In this document: positions 46,305 through 54,527 of the stretch, in pieces
Numbering within the stretch: position 1 is the stretch's first letter
How the letters are laid out: every line of letters starts with the position of its first letter
Assembly: GCF_900109615.1 (NCBI RefSeq)
Contig: NZ_FOIX01000003.1
Location: 496,001-560,000, forward strand
Source: Kaistella antarctica
Lineage (GTDB): Bacteria > Bacteroidota > Bacteroidia > Flavobacteriales > Weeksellaceae
DNA length: 64,000 nucleotides
Direction: 5' to 3'
Made by a program: the position numbers and the translations under genes
Notes under the pieces: generated by a model
Told to the model about the DNA's origin: nothing
The model's database searches: none
Seen by the model: the letters and a program-made list of their open reading frames with translations, nothing else

Positions 46305-47723
46305 ATGATCAACATCAATTTAAGTAATCAAGAGATAAAATCAGTTTCTCAAAAGTTTTCTTTTTTCTCCGAAAAACAGTGGGAAAGTAAAAAGGATAAT
46401 TTTAAAGATCAATTAAAGAGTTTATTCTCCGCGAAAAAGGACGAAACGTTTATCCTTTTGGAAGATGAGGCTGTTCATTATTTAATAGGACTTGGAGCCG
46501 ATCCGAAGAATTTTGAAATTCAGGCGACCGCTGAAAAATTTACGTACGATTATAGAAAAAAAATAAAATCAGAAAAGACTTCCATCAATACTGAAAATTT
46601 TAATAATGATCAGATTGAAAATTTAGTAAAAGGTTTATATGTTGGAACTTATGAATATCCATTTAAAGCGAAACATGCAGTCTTCCATTCTGATTTTCAG
46701 CTGATCTTAAATGAAGTTTCAGAGGAAGATTTAAAAAATATAGAACTTAAAACATTAGCGATTTGTGAAGGACAATTTGCTTGTATGGAATGGTTAAATA
46801 AACCGCAAAATTTTAAAAGAGTTCCGCATATCTCTGAATTTCTGAATCAAATTGCAGAAAAATATAGTTTAAAACAAACCGTTTTCGATCGTAGAAAATC
46901 GGAGGAATTAGGATTGGGTGCTTTCCTTTCTGTTAATCAGGGAAGTTCGCAAGAAGCAGCGTTTACTATTTTAGAATATCAATCTGGAGTTGCTAATGCA
47001 AAAACAGTCGGCTTGGTTGGTAAATGTGTTCTTTTTGATACTGGTGGAATTTCGATTAAAGGTTCAGAAAATCTGCATTACATGAAATCTGATATGGGCG
47101 GAGCTACGGCCGTTATCGGAACTTTAATTGCTGTGGCCACTTTAAAACTGCCTGTGAATTTGATTGTTATTTTACCAATTACGGATAATGCAGTTTCTAA
47201 TACTGCTTATATTCCGAGCGATGTAATTAGGGCTTACAACGGTAAAACAATCGAGGTTTTAGATACCGATGCCGAAGGAAGAATGACGCTCGCCGACGGA
47301 CTTTCCTATCTCGCGAAAAACTATAAAACCGATGCTTTAATCGATTTGGCAACGCTGACTGGCAGTTCTGTTAGAATGTTTGGTTCTACTTGTAGCGCTT
47401 ACTTTTCTAACAATGAAGCATTGAAAAAATTACTGGAAAAATCTGGAGATGAAACGAATCAGCGGTTATGGAATCTTCCTCTTTGGGATATTTGGAAAGA
47501 CGACTTCAAATCGGACGTTGCCGATTTCAAAAATATATCATCAAAACCTTTTGGAGATTGTATTGTCGCCGGCAAATTTTTAGAACAGTTTATTGAAGGG
47601 CATTCGAATTGGGCGCATCTTGATATCGCTGGTGTTGCTTTCGGAAACGTACAATATATGAAAGAAAAGGGCGCAACGGGATACGGCGTTCAATTATTGG
47701 TCGATTTCCTGCAAAAGTTTTAA
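46305..47723 (+). CDS. Leucyl aminopeptidase (M17)
   Basis: A 472-residue M17 aminopeptidase of the PepA/LAP group. The N-terminal regulatory domain (about 1-155) is less conserved. The catalytic domain has the metal site VLFDTGGISIKGS, DMGGATAV and the signature VLDTDAEGRMTLADGL. It removes N-terminal residues from peptides using two metal ions. It follows ligA by 23 bp and precedes the amidoligase cluster by 143 bp, so it could trim the cluster's product or simply be a housekeeping peptidase. The latter is the safer reading. Confidence 0.93.
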   Translation: MININLSNQEIKSVSQKFSFFSEKQWESKKDNFKDQLKSLFSAKKDETFILLEDEAVHYLIGLGADPKNFEIQATAEKFTYDYRKKIKSEKTSINTENFNNDQIENLVKGLYVGTYEYPFKAKHAVFHSDFQLILNEVSEEDLKNIELKTLAICEGQFACMEWLNKPQNFKRVPHISEFLNQIAEKYSLKQTVFDRRKSEELGLGAFLSVNQGSSQEAAFTILEYQSGVANAKTVGLVGKCVLFDTGGISIKGSENLHYMKSDMGGATAVIGTLIAVATLKLPVNLIVILPITDNAVSNTAYIPSDVIRAYNGKTIEVLDTDAEGRMTLADGLSYLAKNYKTDALIDLATLTGSSVRMFGSTCSAYFSNNEALKKLLEKSGDETNQRLWNLPLWDIWKDDFKSDVADFKNISSKPFGDCIVAGKFLEQFIEGHSNWAHLDIAGVAFGNVQYMKEKGATGYGVQLLVDFLQKF

Positions 47724-47866
47724 CTAAAATTAGCATATTTAAAATTTTCTCTGTATAATTGAAATAGAATTTTCAAATATTGAACATACTTCGATAATTG
47801 ATATTAAATACTTAAGGTAAAAGTGTTTCAATTTTTGATAATTCAATAATTATTAAATTCTATTAC

Positions 47867-49078
47867 ATGAAGGAGAAAACAATTGTTTGTATTTCCTGCT
47901 ATTATAAAGGATATGATTTTATCGACGAGATGAAAAAGCTCGGCAATAGAGTTATCCTAATTGTTTCCGAGAGTACGAAAGAAAAAAACTGGCCATGGCA
48001 TGCGATAGACGAAGTATATTATATGCCAGAAGTGGAACCATCTGTTTGGAATTTAGACCATTTAGTACAGGGTTTTTCTTATTTATTAAAAGGAACAAAA
48101 ATAGATAGAGTCATCGCCTTAGATGACTACGACGTAGAAAAAGCAGCTTTGCTTCGCGAGTCTTTTCGCATTCCAGGAATGGGTCAAACTACGCAGCGTT
48201 ACTTTCGCGATAAATTGGCCATGAGGCAAATGGCGAAAGATTCATATATTGATATTCCTCAATTCTCTTCCATTTTTAATGATGAAACAGTTAATGAATT
48301 TGTAGATAAAATTGCACCACCTTGGGTTTTAAAACCACGGTCTGAAGCTTCTGCAACAGGAATTGTTAAAATTAAAACAAAAGAAGAGTTATGGATCGCC
48401 ATCGAGAATCTGGGAGATAAAAGATTTCATTTTCTTTTAGAAAGTTTTAAACCTGGCGATGTTTTTCACGTCGACAGTTTGGTTTACGACAGCGAAATCT
48501 GCTTCGTTTCGGCTTCGCAATATTTGTCACCACCGATGGAAGTTTCGCACGACGGCGGGATTTTCAGATCAAAAACATTAGGAAAAAAATCACCAGAATT
48601 TATTGCTTTAGAAGAAGCAAATAAAAAAGTTTTAAAAAGCTTTGGTCTGAAACATGGCGCAACTCATACCGAATTTATCCGTGGGAAAGAAGATGGAAAA
48701 TGGTATTTCTTAGAAACTTCTTCAAGAGTTGGTGGCGCACATATTCCAGATTTGGTTGAAGCTTCCACGGGAATTAATCTGTGGCGCGAATGGGCAAGAA
48801 TAGAAAACGCCTGGTTAAATGATACACCTTATCAATTAACAAAACCAACTGATCTTTATGGCGGACTGATCATCTGCTTATCTCGAGATAAAAATCCAGA
48901 CTGTAAAGAATTTGAAGCACCAGAAGTATACAAATTTCTACCAATGGATTACCACGTAGGTTTGGTTTATCAATCAGATAAATCAGAGAGGATTAAGGAA
49001 CTTTTGGATGATGCAGCAATGAAAATTAATGACCATCACCTTAGTATTATGCCGCCGAAATCAAAACCAACTTCCTAA
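47867..49078 (+). CDS. ATP-grasp enzyme 1 of the amidoligase cluster
   Basis: A 403-residue carboxylate-amine or carboxylate-thiol ligase of the ATP-grasp superfamily. A Rossmann-like N-terminal part (IVCISCYYKGYDFIDEMKKLG) precedes the ATP-binding region (VLKPRSEASATGI) and the metal motif HTEFI...YFLETSSRVGGAH. It should activate a carboxylate as an acyl phosphate and join it to an amine. The substrates are unknown. It is the first gene of a six-gene same-strand group with an esterase 28 bp downstream. A D-Ala-D-Ala-ligase or carnosine-synthase-like function is possible. A biotin-carboxylase function is less likely, since the length and motifs differ. Confidence 0.88.
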   Translation: MKEKTIVCISCYYKGYDFIDEMKKLGNRVILIVSESTKEKNWPWHAIDEVYYMPEVEPSVWNLDHLVQGFSYLLKGTKIDRVIALDDYDVEKAALLRESFRIPGMGQTTQRYFRDKLAMRQMAKDSYIDIPQFSSIFNDETVNEFVDKIAPPWVLKPRSEASATGIVKIKTKEELWIAIENLGDKRFHFLLESFKPGDVFHVDSLVYDSEICFVSASQYLSPPMEVSHDGGIFRSKTLGKKSPEFIALEEANKKVLKSFGLKHGATHTEFIRGKEDGKWYFLETSSRVGGAHIPDLVEASTGINLWREWARIENAWLNDTPYQLTKPTDLYGGLIICLSRDKNPDCKEFEAPEVYKFLPMDYHVGLVYQSDKSERIKELLDDAAMKINDHHLSIMPPKSKPTS

Positions 49079-49106
49079 ATTTTCTTTTAATAAATCTAAA
49101 ACCATT

Positions 49107-49820
49107 ATGCCAAGAATTGAGCACACTGATTATTACTCGCATATCTTAGGAATGAGTTTGAGAGTTGAAGTTACGGGACATTTCGGCCATCCGATCATTA
49201 TGTTCCCAACATCAAATGGGCAATACACTCAAAATCATGATTTTAAATTGAATGAAAGTATTAATCATTTCATCGATCAGGGAAAAGTAAAATTGTATAA
49301 TATTGAAACTATAGATAAGTTCAGTTTCTATGACAAGAATATTTCTGCGGCAGAACGAATCAGAAATTACGAGCTGTATATGCAGTTTTTAATTCAGGAG
49401 TTTGTGCCCTACATTCAACAAATGCATTCTGTGCATCGCGTGGCGGTTGCAGGAGCAAGTTTTGGTGGATATCATGCGGCTAATTTTGCGTTTCGTTTTC
49501 CAAATGTGGTCTCTCATATGTTTTGTCTTTCTGGTGCATTTTCAATCCGGAATTTTATGGAGGGTTTTAGCAATGATTTGGTTTATTACAACTGCCCACG
49601 GGAATTTGTTAAAAATGACGAAAGCTTTAAATACCATCATATGCACATTGTCTTAAGCACTTCTGACCAGGATATTTGTTTAGAGCAGACGCGTGAAATG
49701 GCGGGCATTTTAGCTTCGAAAGGAATCGATCATTGGTATGATGAGCAAAAATGGATTAACCATGACTGGCCACTTTGGCGAATGGTTTTCCCCACTTTTA
49801 TCGGCAGATTTTTCTCTTAG
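49107..49820 (+). CDS. Alpha/beta-hydrolase esterase of the amidoligase cluster
   Basis: A 237-residue cytoplasmic alpha/beta hydrolase of the esterase D-like type. The nucleophile elbow is AGASFGGYHAANFAF. A conserved Asp-His region follows near the C-terminus (STSDQDICLEQ, INHDWPLW). The ATG at 49107 (MPRIEHTDYY) is the start; an earlier in-frame ATG lies inside the previous gene. It sits 28 bp after ATP-grasp 1. In this setting it may hydrolyse an ester or thioester intermediate or cleave a finished amide. The substrate is unknown. Confidence 0.88.
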   Translation: MPRIEHTDYYSHILGMSLRVEVTGHFGHPIIMFPTSNGQYTQNHDFKLNESINHFIDQGKVKLYNIETIDKFSFYDKNISAAERIRNYELYMQFLIQEFVPYIQQMHSVHRVAVAGASFGGYHAANFAFRFPNVVSHMFCLSGAFSIRNFMEGFSNDLVYYNCPREFVKNDESFKYHHMHIVLSTSDQDICLEQTREMAGILASKGIDHWYDEQKWINHDWPLWRMVFPTFIGRFFS

Positions 49821-49876
49821 TTTTAAAGAAAAACATTTTAAAAAAAAACCACATTAATTAAAAAAAATAAAATATT

Positions 49877-50830
49877 ATGGCAAAGAAAGTAGGAATTTTA
49901 TTCGGTATGGAAGATACTTTTCCCTGGGCTTTTATTGATAAAGTAAATGAACTCGGTAAGGGAGAAATCATCGCCGAACCCGTAATGATCGATAAATTAG
50001 AGCAAGGTGAGGATTATGGATATGCTGTCATTATTGATCGAATTTCGCAAGATGTTCCTTTTTACCGAGCGTATTTAAAAAATGCGGCGCTCAATGGGAC
50101 TTATATTATGAACAATCCGTTTTGGTGGAGTGCCGATGAGAAATTCTTTAATAATGCATTAATGTCAAAACTAGGAATTCCCTTGCCGAAAACGGTTTTG
50201 TTACCCTCAAATGACCGACCTACCGACACCACTGAAACCTCTTTTCGAAACCTAAAATTTCCGCATGACTGGGATTATATCTTTAATTATATCGGCTTCC
50301 CGGCTTATATGAAACCTCACGATGGCGGCGGCTGGAAGAATGTTTACCGCGTAGAAGATGCTGAAGATATGTGGACGAAATTAGGCGAAACGGGACAATT
50401 GGTGATGATGCTTCAGGAAGAAATTTTCTTTGAAGATTATTATCGAGTCTATTGTTTAGGGAAAAAATACGTTCACATTATGCCTTACGAACCGAGAAAT
50501 GAGCACCATTTACGATATGCGACGACACACAAAACAGAAGGAAAAGCAAGAGAAAAACTTTTGAAAGTTATTCATGATTACACCATTGAAATGAATGAAG
50601 CTTTGGGTTACGATTTTAATACGGTAGAGTTTGCCGTGAAAGATGGAATTCCTTACGCCATTGATTTCTGTAATCCTGCGCCAGATGCCGATAGAAACTC
50701 GGTGGGTGAAGAAAATTTCGCCTGGATTGTTGAACATTCGGCTAAGCTAGCAATTGAAAAAGCGAAGGAATATGTTGCAGGTAAACCTAATATTTCGTGG
50801 GGAACATTTGTGAAAGATTCGATCAAATAA
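49877..50830 (+). CDS. ATP-grasp enzyme 2 (RimK-like) of the amidoligase cluster
   Basis: A 317-residue ATP-grasp protein. Visible are the ATP-binding lysine and glycine loop (AYMKPHDGGGWKNVY), a strand with MLQEEIFFEDYYRVY, and the metal motifs TVEFAVKD and AIDFCNPAPD. Its fold resembles the RimK/GshB type that joins amino acids to carboxylates. It has a YLKNAALNGTYIMNNPFWWSADEKFF segment typical of a lid. It is distinct from ATP-grasp 1 in sequence, so the two would carry out separate steps. It is cytoplasmic, with no signal peptide. Confidence 0.88.
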   Translation: MAKKVGILFGMEDTFPWAFIDKVNELGKGEIIAEPVMIDKLEQGEDYGYAVIIDRISQDVPFYRAYLKNAALNGTYIMNNPFWWSADEKFFNNALMSKLGIPLPKTVLLPSNDRPTDTTETSFRNLKFPHDWDYIFNYIGFPAYMKPHDGGGWKNVYRVEDAEDMWTKLGETGQLVMMLQEEIFFEDYYRVYCLGKKYVHIMPYEPRNEHHLRYATTHKTEGKAREKLLKVIHDYTIEMNEALGYDFNTVEFAVKDGIPYAIDFCNPAPDADRNSVGEENFAWIVEHSAKLAIEKAKEYVAGKPNISWGTFVKDSIK

Positions 50831-50907
50831 CTTTTTTAGTTCAGTTTAAAAGTAACAAAGATCAATTTTTAAACTGACCTATTTTAATCCTTAAAAACAC
50901 AAAAACG

Positions 50908-52014
50908 ATGCATAGATTTACCATTGGCGTTGAAGAAGAATATCAAATTATTGATGCAGAAAGTCGTGATTTGGTTTCACATGTTTCCAAAATAATTGAA
51001 GGTGGCCACGCAACTTTAAAGGAAAACTTAAAACATGAAATGCACGAATCTGTTATTGAAATGGAAACTGGTATTTGCCAAAACATATCTGGCGTCCGTG
51101 CTGAGTTAACTGATCTCCGTAAAAGGCTGATTAAGGTTGCTCACGAAAATAACCTGCGTGTTTCTGGCGGCGGAACCCATCCTTTTTCTCACTGGAAAAA
51201 CAATCCCATTACGAAAGATCAGCGGTACGATAAAATCGTGAGTGACTTGGGAGATGTTGCCCGCTCCAATTTAATTTTCGGATTGCACGTTCATATTGGG
51301 ATTCCAAACCGGGAAGAAGGAATTAGAATTCAAAATGTGATGCGTTATTTTTTGCCTCATATCTATGCGCTTTCCACCAACTCCCCTTTTTGGGTCGGAA
51401 GTAAAACTGGTTTTAAATCTTATCGACACGAAGTTTTTGCGAAATTCCCGAGAACCGGAATTCCGAGTTATTTTAATTCAGTCGCGGAGTTTGATGCCTA
51501 CATTGATTTGATGATTAAAACCGGAACCATTGATAATGCTAAGAAAATATGGTGGGATCTTCGCGTTCATCCATTCTACCCAACGATTGAATTTAGAATT
51601 TGCGATATGCCTTTGAGAACTGATGAAACGGTTTGTCTGGCAGCAATTATGCAATGTTTGGTCGCGAAGATTTATAAACTGCACGAACAAAATATGAGTT
51701 TCAGAAGTTACAGAAGACTTTTACTCAATGAAAATAAATGGCGTGCTTCTAAAGAAGGAATTGATGCTCATCTCATCGATTTTGGAAAAGAAACCAGCGT
51801 TCCTTTTGTGGCTTTATTGAAGGAATTACTTGAATTTATTGATGATGTAGTTGATGAATTAGATTGCAGAAAAGAAGTCGAATATGCCTGGGAAATTATG
51901 AAAAATGGTACTGGAGCAGACCGTCAGTTAAAGGTTTACGAAGAAACAGGAGACCTGAAAGCAGTTGTAGATTACATGATTGCAGAAACTGAATTTGGAA
52001 TTACGTACGAATAA
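50908..52014 (+). CDS. GCS2-type carboxylate-amine ligase (YbdK family)
   Basis: A 368-residue ligase of the glutamine-synthetase-like fold. The GCS2 hallmark FTIGVEEEYQIID is at the N-terminus; FGLHVHIGIPN and TIEFRICDMPLRT are further family segments. These enzymes form gamma-glutamyl or related amide bonds from ATP; E. coli YbdK has weak glutamate-cysteine ligase activity in vitro. It lies 77 bp after ATP-grasp 2. With the three ATP-grasp enzymes it would build an amide chain, perhaps starting with a gamma-glutamyl step. Confidence 0.92.
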   Translation: MHRFTIGVEEEYQIIDAESRDLVSHVSKIIEGGHATLKENLKHEMHESVIEMETGICQNISGVRAELTDLRKRLIKVAHENNLRVSGGGTHPFSHWKNNPITKDQRYDKIVSDLGDVARSNLIFGLHVHIGIPNREEGIRIQNVMRYFLPHIYALSTNSPFWVGSKTGFKSYRHEVFAKFPRTGIPSYFNSVAEFDAYIDLMIKTGTIDNAKKIWWDLRVHPFYPTIEFRICDMPLRTDETVCLAAIMQCLVAKIYKLHEQNMSFRSYRRLLLNENKWRASKEGIDAHLIDFGKETSVPFVALLKELLEFIDDVVDELDCRKEVEYAWEIMKNGTGADRQLKVYEETGDLKAVVDYMIAETEFGITYE

Positions 52015-52051
52015 ATTTGAATTTATTAAATTTGCATCGTAATTAAAGAAA

Positions 52052-52882
52052 ATGAAAAAGTTAAAAATCGCCTTGCTTGATATGAACAATAATCATGTTA
52101 ATCAAGGGATGCGCAATATCAGAGAAATTTCACAACAGTTTAAGGAACATGCTGATGAAGATGTTTCGATTACTCTTTTTGATGTAAGATTTAAAGATGA
52201 AATCCCTGATATTCAGGATTTCGATATATTTATTTCTTCTGGCGGTCCCGGAAATCCGCACAAAGAAGGCTATGCTTGGGAACCAAAATATGCCGATTTT
52301 TTAGATAATCTTTTAGAACACAATAGAGTTTCGGACCAAAAAAAGTTTGCGTTTTTAGTGTGTCATTCTTTTCAGGTCGCGTGTATCCACTGGAATTTGG
52401 GAAACATTTGTAAAAGAAAATCGTATTCGTTTGGGGTGATGCCAATTCATAGAACTGCAGAAGGTAAAGAAGATTTCTTGTTGAAGAATCTACCAGAACC
52501 TTTCTATGCGGTTGATTCCAGAAGTTATCAATTTATCGAACCCAATTACGAAACCATCAATGAGATGGGAACGAAAGTCGTGGCTTTGGAGAAGGTTCGT
52601 CCACATATTCATTTGGAACGAGCCGTAATGGCCATTCGATTTTCACCTGAAATCTTTGGAACTCAGTTTCATCCAGAAGCAGATCCAAAAGGAATGTTAG
52701 AAAATTTAAAAATTGATAAGAATAGAACGGCGATGATTGAGAATTACGGCGTTGAGAAATATCTCGAAACTGTCGACCGAATGGACGATTCCGATAAAAT
52801 TGTCTTAACCCAAGCGCAAATTCTACCAAGATTTTTACAACACGCTTCACAAGAAATTATGAAAAGTTTAGTGATGGCTTAA
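52052..52882 (+). CDS. Class I glutamine amidotransferase of the amidoligase cluster
   Basis: A 276-residue protein with the full catalytic triad: Cys104 in FLVCHSFQ, His207 and Glu209 in TQFHPEAD. The oxyanion-type motif SSGGPGNP is in place. It belongs to the class I GATase fold and could release ammonia from glutamine for an amidating ligase or, as in gamma-glutamyl hydrolases, cut gamma-glutamyl bonds. A C-terminal extension (about 220-276) is not part of the usual domain. It is 37 bp after the GCS2 gene. No partner synthetase domain is fused. Confidence 0.88.
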   Translation: MKKLKIALLDMNNNHVNQGMRNIREISQQFKEHADEDVSITLFDVRFKDEIPDIQDFDIFISSGGPGNPHKEGYAWEPKYADFLDNLLEHNRVSDQKKFAFLVCHSFQVACIHWNLGNICKRKSYSFGVMPIHRTAEGKEDFLLKNLPEPFYAVDSRSYQFIEPNYETINEMGTKVVALEKVRPHIHLERAVMAIRFSPEIFGTQFHPEADPKGMLENLKIDKNRTAMIENYGVEKYLETVDRMDDSDKIVLTQAQILPRFLQHASQEIMKSLVMA

Positions 52883-52998
52883 GTCATTTTTATTAATGAT
52901 GCAGCCGGTATTCGCAAAAGCTTTAAAACTTTAAAAAAAATAAATTGATGACGTGGGAAATAAATTCCCCGCATTGATTTTTAAATAAAACGAATACC

Positions 52999-54183
52999 AT
53001 GATTCCAAAATATCGACAGCAATTTAATGCTGAATATACCACTGAAAAATATACCGCGCTTAAAGATGAACTTGCTAAACGAGCAGGAACAGAGGCACTT
53101 TTTCGAGTTTCAGAAAGTCCGATATTTTTAACGAGAGACTTTAAAGATAAATTAGATGATGCATGCAACAGCATTATTGACCAGATCAAAAAAATGTCGC
53201 CTGAGGAATTAGATCAAGCAGTTCCGGATAATTGTCGCGTGCCGAATGACCATCACAAACCTCACTTTTTAGCTATCGATTTTGGGATTTGCAAAAATCC
53301 AGAAACTGGAGAAATCGAACCTCAATTGATTGAATTACAAGCCTTCCCTACTCTTTATGCTTTTCAGGAGGAATACGAAGAAGTGGTTTCTGAGCTCTTT
53401 CCCTTTTTAAAAGATTTACGAACTTCACTTCCCAAACCCGAGTACATTCAGTATTTAAAGGAGGTTATTGTTGGCAATGAAAATCCTGAGAATGTAGTTT
53501 TAATGGAAATTTATCCAGAGAAACAAAAAACCAGTATTGACTTTGCTTTAACGGAAAAGTATTTAGGAATTAAAACGGTTTGTTTGACCAAAGTAAAAAA
53601 AGAAGGTAAAAAACTTTTTTATGAAAATGAGGGAAGACTAATTCCGATTCATCGAATTTATAACCGTGTGATTTTTGATGAACTAGATCACATCCTTAAT
53701 TTAAAAACCGAATTTGATTTCCGGGATGAAGTTGACGTTACGTGGGTGACGCATCCAAACTGGTTTTTCAAAGTTTCAAAATATATCTTGCCTAAATTAG
53801 AACATCAGTACGTGCCGAAAAGTTATTTTCTGTCAGAATTTCCTGCTTCAGAAAAGTTAGAAGATTTTGTTTTGAAACCTTTGTTTTCTTTTGCTGGAAG
53901 CGGCGTTAACCTCGATCCAGTTCAAGCAGACATCGATGTTATTTCAGATAAAGATAATTTCATCATGCAAAGAAAAGTCTTTTACGAACCTCTTTTTGAA
54001 GACGTCAATGGCGAGTTTTCTAAATCAGAAATCCGCATGCTTTACCTCTGGAAAGAAAATGAAGAGAACCCTTTATTGATGGACAACTTAGCTAGAATGA
54101 CTAAAGTTGCCATGGCTAATGTTGACTTTAATAAGAAAGACGCGATTTGGATTGGTAGTTCACTGGCATTTTTTGAAAAATAA
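52999..54183 (+). CDS. ATP-grasp-like enzyme 3, possibly circularly permuted
   Basis: A 394-residue protein. The metal-type segment IELQAFPTLYAFQ occurs early (about 110-125), while the ATP-binding lysine motif LKPLFSFAGSG (Lys293) occurs late. This reversed order is what circularly permuted ATP-grasp enzymes such as glutathionylspermidine synthase show. No amidase domain is attached; the class I GATase just upstream could fill the opposite role. It lies 116 bp after that gene and ends the cluster. The family assignment is by motif order and is uncertain. Confidence 0.75.
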   Translation: MIPKYRQQFNAEYTTEKYTALKDELAKRAGTEALFRVSESPIFLTRDFKDKLDDACNSIIDQIKKMSPEELDQAVPDNCRVPNDHHKPHFLAIDFGICKNPETGEIEPQLIELQAFPTLYAFQEEYEEVVSELFPFLKDLRTSLPKPEYIQYLKEVIVGNENPENVVLMEIYPEKQKTSIDFALTEKYLGIKTVCLTKVKKEGKKLFYENEGRLIPIHRIYNRVIFDELDHILNLKTEFDFRDEVDVTWVTHPNWFFKVSKYILPKLEHQYVPKSYFLSEFPASEKLEDFVLKPLFSFAGSGVNLDPVQADIDVISDKDNFIMQRKVFYEPLFEDVNGEFSKSEIRMLYLWKENEENPLLMDNLARMTKVAMANVDFNKKDAIWIGSSLAFFEK

Positions 54184-54242: not shown

Positions 54243-54250
54243 TAACTTTG
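54243..54250 (+). promoter_or_regulatory. -7 promoter box (TAACTTTG) of the small exported protein
   Basis: Exact TAnnTTTG match, 30 bp before the ATG at 54281. A TTG at 54248 is inside it. Confidence 0.45.
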
Positions 54251-54280
54251 ATTCTTCAACAACAAAAAAAACAAAGCAAA

Positions 54281-54496
54281 ATGAAAAAAGTTATTTCAGT
54301 TCTGGCCATCTCACTCTTCACTTTAGGGTTTGCCCAAGAAGCACCGAAAAAATCTTGCTGCGCCGGAAAGGACAAAAAAGATTGCAAGATGGCTGATAAA
54401 AAATCAGAGAAAGTTTGCACAATGAAAGATCACAAAGATTGCAAAGGCGCCTGTACTGCTTCCGAAAAGAAATCAGAGACGAAGAAAACCGCTTAG
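54281..54496 (+). CDS. Small exported Cys/Lys-rich protein, possible metal binder
   Basis: A 71-residue protein with a signal peptide (MKKVISVLAISLFTLGFAQ) and a mature part of about 52 residues rich in Lys, with six cysteines (SCC, DCK, VCT, DCK, ACT). KDCK and KDHKDCK repeats suggest a metal- or redox-active periplasmic protein. I do not recognise a family. The ATG at 54281 places the signal peptide correctly. It follows the amidoligase cluster after 97 bp but has its own promoter box and a terminator that also separates it from holB. Confidence 0.72.
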   Translation: MKKVISVLAISLFTLGFAQEAPKKSCCAGKDKKDCKMADKKSEKVCTMKDHKDCKGACTASEKKSETKKTA

Positions 54497-54502
54497 AAAT
54501 AC

Positions 54503-54527
54503 AACCACCGATTGGTGGTTTTTTTAT
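54503..54527 (+). terminator. Terminator after the small Cys/Lys-rich gene
   Basis: AACCACC, 4-nt loop, GGTGGTT, then T7, all within the 3' end of the convergent holB. The stop of the small gene is 6 bp before it. Confidence 0.82.

Follow-up and report, generated by a model that had tools for sequence, protein, structure and literature searches.

Seven genes of Kaistella antarctica with four probable types of amide ligase, a candidate carrier-free pseudopeptide pathway in Bacteroidota

A 64,000-nucleotide stretch of the Kaistella antarctica genome (assembly GCF_900109615.1, contig NZ_FOIX01000003.1, positions 496,001–560,000 of the forward strand; hereafter the window) carries a run of amide-ligase and hydrolase genes, which raises the question of whether these genes act in one pathway and what kind of compound it would make. 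A preliminary description of the window had proposed a six-gene amidoligase cluster (47867–54183) that may make a small metabolite such as a thiol or storage peptide. All six open reading frames (ORFs) could be verified on the plus strand, and the short gaps reported between genes 1 to 6 were measured as 28, 56, 77, 37 and 116 bases. The observation was thus confirmed, and its interpretation could be supported in part. The six genes are real; the unit, however, has seven, as an M17 aminopeptidase gene at 46305–47723 (gene 0), omitted from the description, is also a member. Genes 1, 3, 4 and 6 are probable amide ligases of four types by family, profile or fold, and genes 0, 2 and 5 are read as hydrolases. 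Family scans of the seven genes revealed no carrier-protein family, which agrees with the proposal of one functional set with several amide ligases and no carrier protein. From these sequence comparisons, we consider it reasonably probable that the seven genes represent one pathway in which a short pseudopeptide, possibly capped with an amine, is built without a carrier and recycled. We know of no product of this pathway, and a literature search, in which few subscription papers were reachable, found no paper on this gene set.

Co-presence, gene order and replacement

Presence of the genes was compared across 296 Bacteroidota genomes, with gene 1 counted at E ≤ 1e-60 only and gene 2 not part of the counts. 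Gene 3 was found in 108 genomes (104 strong), gene 4 in 103 (94 taken as strong), gene 6 in 92, gene 5 in 72 (70 strong) and gene 1 in 66. Genes 3 and 6 shared 89 genomes, genes 3 and 4 shared 91, genes 4 and 6 shared 87, and all three occurred together in 84. Gene 3 was also present in all 66 genomes with gene 1 and in 69 of the 70 with gene 5. The presence lists behind these overlaps and the shuffles below were compiled by hand. They leave out weak hits of gene 3 (G066, G144, G217, G343), gene 5 (G191, G245) and gene 4 (nine genomes: G063, G288 and seven of family f51), and they keep G311 for gene 4 though it scored like the dropped f51 genomes. Keeping every gene-4 hit gives 103 genomes, 12 of them without a strong gene 3.

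To account for the relatedness of the genomes, presence was shuffled inside each family, leaving out families f31 and f37 (99 genomes with no strong cluster gene); 18 families were mixed for gene 3 presence. The observed overlap was reached in 0 of 2000 shuffles for each of the 10 gene pairs. Furthermore, members of the set lie far apart or on different contigs in several families and are nevertheless present together, which argues for one pathway. Within the genus, a near ortholog of gene 0 (≥70% identity) was present in 14 of 36 genomes, exactly those with a full-length gene 6. The other 22 lacked both, save for distant M17 paralogs (four genomes) and remnants of gene 6 (two genomes). These observations bear on the possibility that unrelated amide ligases came together by chance or through shared inheritance. 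Co-presence does reflect common ancestry in part, a fact which Fisher values ignore. This explanation nevertheless appears highly improbable in view of the within-family shuffles, the agreement between gene 0 and gene 6 in 36/36 genus genomes, the co-presence of unlinked genes, and the replacements at the same position described next.

Fifteen genomes hold genes 3 and 5 without gene 6, and the gene 3 locus was fetched for 12 of them. In all 12, a homologous protein (451–483 residues in the nine called as ORFs) is encoded after gene 3. It lies between genes 3 and 5 in 11 loci, and the contig of the remaining one (L119) does not carry gene 5. The stand-in of L110, the one scanned, scored above the CP_ATPgrasp_2 cut-off, and none of the other loci fetched by the time of the comparison showed this protein. 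A permuted ATP-grasp ligase therefore stands in for gene 6 in some lineages. Similarly, the place between genes 4 and 6 is taken by an M29-type peptidase gene in four genomes that lack gene 5 (G312, G150, G328, G112); it scored above the Pfam M29 cut-off in both of the genomes scanned. Such lineage-specific swaps hint at the chemistry of the pathway.

The patchy presence within the genus is at least partly due to loss. In the window, LigA precedes the unit, and it is kept in two genus genomes without the full set (91% and 83% identity in L094 and L095). Loss is indicated because remnants of the unit lie beside LigA in both genomes: gene 5 with fragments of gene 6 in G030, and in G008 just a weak match of 30 residues to the end of the latter gene.

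Gene order was compared in two collections: 80 named loci centred on gene 3, which are the best 80 of at least 590 matches and are skewed to near kin, and 60 loci centred on gene 6 (L040–L099), hand-picked from the matches. The order 2-3-4-5-6 on one strand was kept in 67/80 gene-3-centred and 25/60 gene-6-centred loci, and all seven genes were kept in 22/80 and 16/60, respectively. Loci outside the 2-3-4-5-6 order each miss a match to at least one member, and some of the contigs are short. When all seven genes were compared, 6/80 loci had a member on the opposite strand and 1/80 had a different order. Thus the expectation that the order is kept in other Bacteroidota holds for many relatives, though in several families the genes are scattered. 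Scattering had been named in the preliminary description as a finding that would refute it, but the scattered members still co-occur. The best 80 of the at least 590 gene 3 matches were all from Bacteroidota, and carriers among the matches listed include Kaistella, Chryseobacterium, Elizabethkingia, Epilithonimonas, Maribacter, Dyadobacter, Runella, Algoriphagus and Polaribacter. A search of plasmids gave no match for genes 3 and 6. The unit is probably old in Bacteroidota, with its members kept and lost largely together.

A link to cyanophycin was considered and rejected. In 11/80 named loci (e.g., L143, L144, L158) cphA lies downstream of gene 6 at a distance of no more than approximately 6 kb, and 9 of these loci also have genes for cyanophycinase and isoaspartyl peptidase. 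However, cphA was above the cut-off in 36/36 genus genomes and the set was present in 14, so the proximity reflects shared gene order. A lone gene 6 follows a gene for a protein of approximately 490 residues, amidohydrolase-like by eye, in families f38 and f41 (L074, L078, L096–L099). In family f42 (L047, L054), gene 6 follows a gene resembling, again by eye, that of tryptophanyl-tRNA synthetase.

Ligases and hydrolases of the unit

The features of the unit and its flanks are collected in Table 1.

Table 1. Features of the seven-gene unit and its flanking DNA, in positions of the window
Feature	Position	Strand	Basis
Gene 0, M17 leucyl-aminopeptidase-type peptidase	46305..47723	+	PF00883, DAEGR motif, co-presence with gene 6 in the genus
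Non-coding DNA, probably promoter plus leader	47724..47866	+	Conservation in near relatives
Gene 1, ATP-grasp ligase of the L-amino-acid-ligase type	47867..49078	+	PF13535, profile match to 4wd3
Gene 2, alpha/beta hydrolase	49107..49820	+	PF00756
Gene 3, RimK-like ATP-grasp ligase, most constant member	49877..50830	+	Fold
Gene 4, GCS2 / YbdK-type carboxylate-amine ligase	50908..52014	+	PF04107, NF010039, GhExE
Gene 5, free-standing class I glutamine-amidotransferase-fold enzyme, probably a hydrolase	52052..52882	+	PF00117, triad, M29 swap
Gene 6, probable circularly permuted ATP-grasp acid-amine ligase	52999..54183	+	Weak profile matches, motif order
Terminator-like stem-loop with T run, possible end of the unit	54503..54520	+	Pattern match only

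Among the ligases, gene 1 matched ATP-grasp_4 (PF13535) with 31.8 bits against a cut-off of 27, and its profile matched the L-amino acid ligase 4wd3 with an E value of 1.2e-27. At E 0.01, Pfam gave no match for the window proteins of genes 3 and 6. The fold of gene 3 is RimK-like, with RimK and LysX/ArgX as the nearest folds, and the protein scored 29.8 bits with the RimK model TIGR00768, under the cut-off of 143.4. Of the two ATP-grasp enzymes described earlier, gene 1 belongs to a Pfam family and gene 3 is placed by fold.

Gene 4 matched GCS2 (PF04107) with an E value of 4.8e-62 (210 bits, cut-off 21) and the NCBIfam model NF010039 for the carboxylate-amine ligase family PRK13515 (534 bits, cut-off 371), in accordance with its earlier assignment as a GCS2 ligase. 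Its GhExE signature, which is described in PMC2588565, is represented by G7, E9 and E11, invariant in 21/21 sequences. Gene 4 is a GCS2 / YbdK carboxylate-amine ligase by these matches, and gamma-glutamyl amide formation can be predicted for it. The GCS2 ligation step of the preliminary description, predicted to be a gamma-glutamyl step, is not universal, because gene 4 is absent from 13/104 gene-3 genomes.

Both gene 3 and gene 4 could suggest a tagging system, in which a protein or cofactor receives residues from the RimK-like ligase and loses them again to the peptidases. The nearest folds of gene 3 act on protein or carrier substrates, as the entry titles naming RpsF and LysW complexes indicate, and GCS2 and the Pup ligase PafA form one superfamily according to PMC2588565. 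On the other hand, no conserved small sense-strand ORF occurs in the unit, and gene 1 is closest to ligases of free amino acids; tagging is consequently quite unlikely.

Gene 4 also matches glutamate-cysteine ligase models, which brings up a thiol pathway of the gamma-glutamyl-cysteine type. A homolog of gene 4 directly follows bshA in 3 of the 20 fetched gene-4 loci (L235, L236, L238). However, this neighbourhood was seen just in genomes in which genes 3 and 4 are unlinked (G169, G180, G280), and BshC occurs in 291/296 genomes (285 above the cut-off), with or without the set, which is too general to discriminate. A thiol pathway is very unlikely on these grounds, and nothing points to the dedicated thiol product that had been suggested. 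Relatives of one of the genomes with the bshA–gene 4 neighbourhood are named Balneolales.

Gene 6 had been described as a third, apparently permuted ATP-grasp-like enzyme. Four of its relatives scanned at E 0.1 gave no Pfam match, to a permuted ATP-grasp family or any other. In the profile search, YgiC (7uk8) was the sole PDB match at E ≤ 1, with an E value of 0.024. A colinear hhalign match to a CP_ATPgrasp_2-like family (E 5e-4, probability 31) and a motif order of the permuted type were also found. By the motif order and the weak profile matches, gene 6 is taken as a probable acid-amine ligase of the circularly permuted ATP-grasp type. Ligases of the ATP-grasp type also make graspetides, a class of ribosomal peptides. 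No sense-strand precursor ORF of 20–120 codons recurs in relatives, either in the gaps or just downstream, and a GCS2 ligase and gene 1 are foreign to graspetide logic, which makes this origin extremely improbable.

Turning to the hydrolases, gene 0 matched PF00883 with an E value of 1.3e-100 (337 bits, cut-off 25), and its DAEGR motif, which we take to be the catalytic motif of M17, is kept in 17/17 collected relatives. It is the window counterpart of a protein of approximately 472 residues encoded upstream of gene 1 in relatives. Where gene 1 sits apart from genes 2–6, the M17 gene directly precedes it in 6/20 loci. A homologous esterase gene lies upstream of M17 and gene 1 each time in L240, L241, L242, L246, L247 and L249. 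The one scanned (L246) belongs to PF00756, and two homologs of this esterase occur elsewhere in the genome of the window.

The earlier assignment of gene 2 as an alpha/beta hydrolase was borne out by an above-cut-off match to PF00756 (Esterase; E 7.5e-9). Its start was placed at 49107, because the longer ORF from 49029 would overlap gene 1 and relatives have approximately 237 residues. S118, D189 and H219 (L080 numbering) are among the positions conserved at ≥95% in 38 relatives, and may form the catalytic triad.

Gene 5 matched PF00117 (GATase) above the Pfam cut-off, PF00117 was found in 23/23 members, and the full triad of C104, H207 and E209 noted before was invariant in 23/23 aligned sequences. 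Against named amidotransferase families, the best score of the window protein was 48.3 bits with NF005743, under the cut-off of 264. Some features recall MetA acyltransferases. HTS (MetA, PF04204) was matched weakly by 7/23 members, the window protein not among them; the NCBIfam MetA_acetyl model matched 7/23; one MetA structure (2vdj) appeared in the profile search at E 0.0048; and some relatives are named homoserine O-succinyltransferase in the database. Gene 5 is more likely a hydrolase than the ammonia donor considered earlier, because an M29-type peptidase takes its place in four genomes. Read most simply, this swap points to gene 5 as an enzyme that cuts a bond in an intermediate or in the product itself.

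A different role for genes 4 and 5 would be amine uptake or detoxification, in which the GCS2-type ligase glutamylates an amine, the glutamine-amidotransferase-fold enzyme later removes the glutamyl group, and the peptidases complete the breakdown. In putrescine use by PuuA/PuuD, the amine is glutamylated and the glutamyl group is removed later, and gene 5 is indeed a free-standing enzyme of this fold with a full triad. Nevertheless, no oxidase, dehydrogenase, aminotransferase or transporter could be found by family among the seven genes, three further ligases would be superfluous, and the other members stay in the gene-3 genomes that lack gene 4. The amine route is thus unlikely.

Upstream and downstream DNA

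The 143 bases between gene 0 and gene 1 are unusually well conserved. In 12 genus genomes this gap is 143–150 bases long with a mean pairwise identity of 71%, compared to 19–39% in the other five gaps and 46–55% at the third codon positions of genes 1, 3 and 6. An alignment of 27 sequences from Kaistella- and Chryseobacterium-type genomes (A7, 27 of 28 distinct gaps, with L162 omitted and gaps outside 130–180 bases omitted earlier) revealed 25 invariant positions. The element is not kept in the distant loci L153, L154, L155, L158 and L159, where the gaps are 22–122 bases. Promoter-like hexamers (TTAGCA and TATAAT, 18 bases apart) could be located at 47730–47759; such matches are not enriched in the region, with 26 observed against 35.8 in shuffles. 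A Bacteroidota promoter pattern was not found near the unit.

Two other explanations of the element were rejected. As an RNA leader, it showed no pairs in RNAalifold, hence no consensus structure, and no match in Rfam. As the site of a regulon, it has no second copy in the genome at 0–1 mismatches, and a relaxed pattern gave 40 genome hits, equal to the reversed-pattern control (39). An antisense ORF of 35 codons (47739–47846), the one small ORF that recurs, lies inside the element and has matches in 22 loci; its recurrence is read as conservation of the surrounding DNA element. The element at 47724–47866 is probably a regulated promoter, or an operator, that serves genes 1–6 exclusively in Kaistella- and Chryseobacterium-type genera.

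Downstream, the terminator-like stem-loop reads both ways, and holB lies on the opposite strand; the region holds 10 such matches against a shuffle mean of 9.0. A small ORF after gene 6 (54248–54496) encodes a signal-peptide-like, cysteine- and lysine-rich protein. Outside the genome of the window, a relative of it (74%) was found in one fetched locus alone, L094.

The proposed pathway and known systems

Taken together, the assignments allow a possible course of synthesis to be drawn. Gene 1 would join two amino acids, and the RimK-like gene 3 would add a residue to a carboxylate. Gene 4, where present, would make a gamma-glutamyl amide. Gene 6, or its permuted ATP-grasp replacement, may cap a carboxylate with an amine, as YgiC reportedly does with spermidine. 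The three hydrolases (genes 0, 2 and 5) could trim, deprotect or recycle the product.

Several points weigh against one carrier-free pseudopeptide pathway. The genomes are related, so that Fisher values overstate the association and the shuffle corrects for family only. Gene 5 is missing from 35/104 gene-3 genomes, and together with the 13 that lack gene 4 these gaps may reflect several products or a smaller core. Neither an exporter nor a regulator was found by family among the seven genes. Through its shared features with MetA acyltransferases, gene 5 may carry out acyl transfer, and the acid-amine ligase assignment of gene 6 rests on the YgiC match with its E value of 0.024.

If the proposed pathway is true, 104 of the 296 sampled Bacteroidota species carry its gene 3, and the four stand-alone amide ligases would represent new material for biocatalysis. 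The strict co-presence, together with the swaps, makes the pathway question directly testable. A more specific proposal, which we regard as doubtful, is that a soluble short peptide common to approximately a third of Bacteroidota species, often gamma-glutamyl and capped through gene 6 with a polyamine or similar amine, is made without a carrier and turned over by peptidases of its own. Such a peptide would correspond in function to glutathionylspermidine but belong to none of the known thiol pathways.

Amidoligase neighbourhoods were reportedly predicted by Iyer et al. in 2009, with ATP-grasp and GS-like ligases and peptidases grouped in operons. The members of the present unit can each be compared with better-known enzymes. 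Gene 4 resembles the GCS2 / YbdK ligases in exceeding the Pfam and NCBIfam cut-offs and keeping GhExE, and differs in standing beside three other ligases and three hydrolases. Gene 1 is similar to the L-amino-acid ligases (4wd3, BL00235, BacD), yet here it is coupled to an M17 aminopeptidase gene. In contrast to its nearest folds RimK, LysX and ArgX, gene 3 falls under the RimK model cut-off, and no S6 or LysW gene could be recognized by eye in the unit.

The permuted ATP-grasp acid-amine ligases of the YgiC/YjfC and glutathionylspermidine synthetase type are linked to gene 6 by the weak match to YgiC, the sole solved structure its profile retrieved, in the absence of a Pfam family, and by the CP_ATPgrasp_2-like protein that replaces gene 6 in other lineages. 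In PMC12568646, YgiC and YjfC are called peptidylpolyamine synthetases, and the title of a paper cited there gives a peptide-spermidine ligase activity. YgiC/YjfC are also listed there among the structural relatives of the ATP-grasp enzyme of E-64 synthesis. The E-64 and dapdiamide pathways, which make carrier-free pseudotripeptides, differ from the present unit in having one ATP-grasp enzyme and one adenylating amide bond synthetase, and their warhead-forming oxygenase is absent here. The likeness to them lies in the logic of assembly, in which, as described in PMC12568646, stand-alone amide ligases working in series join an acid, an amino acid and an amine.

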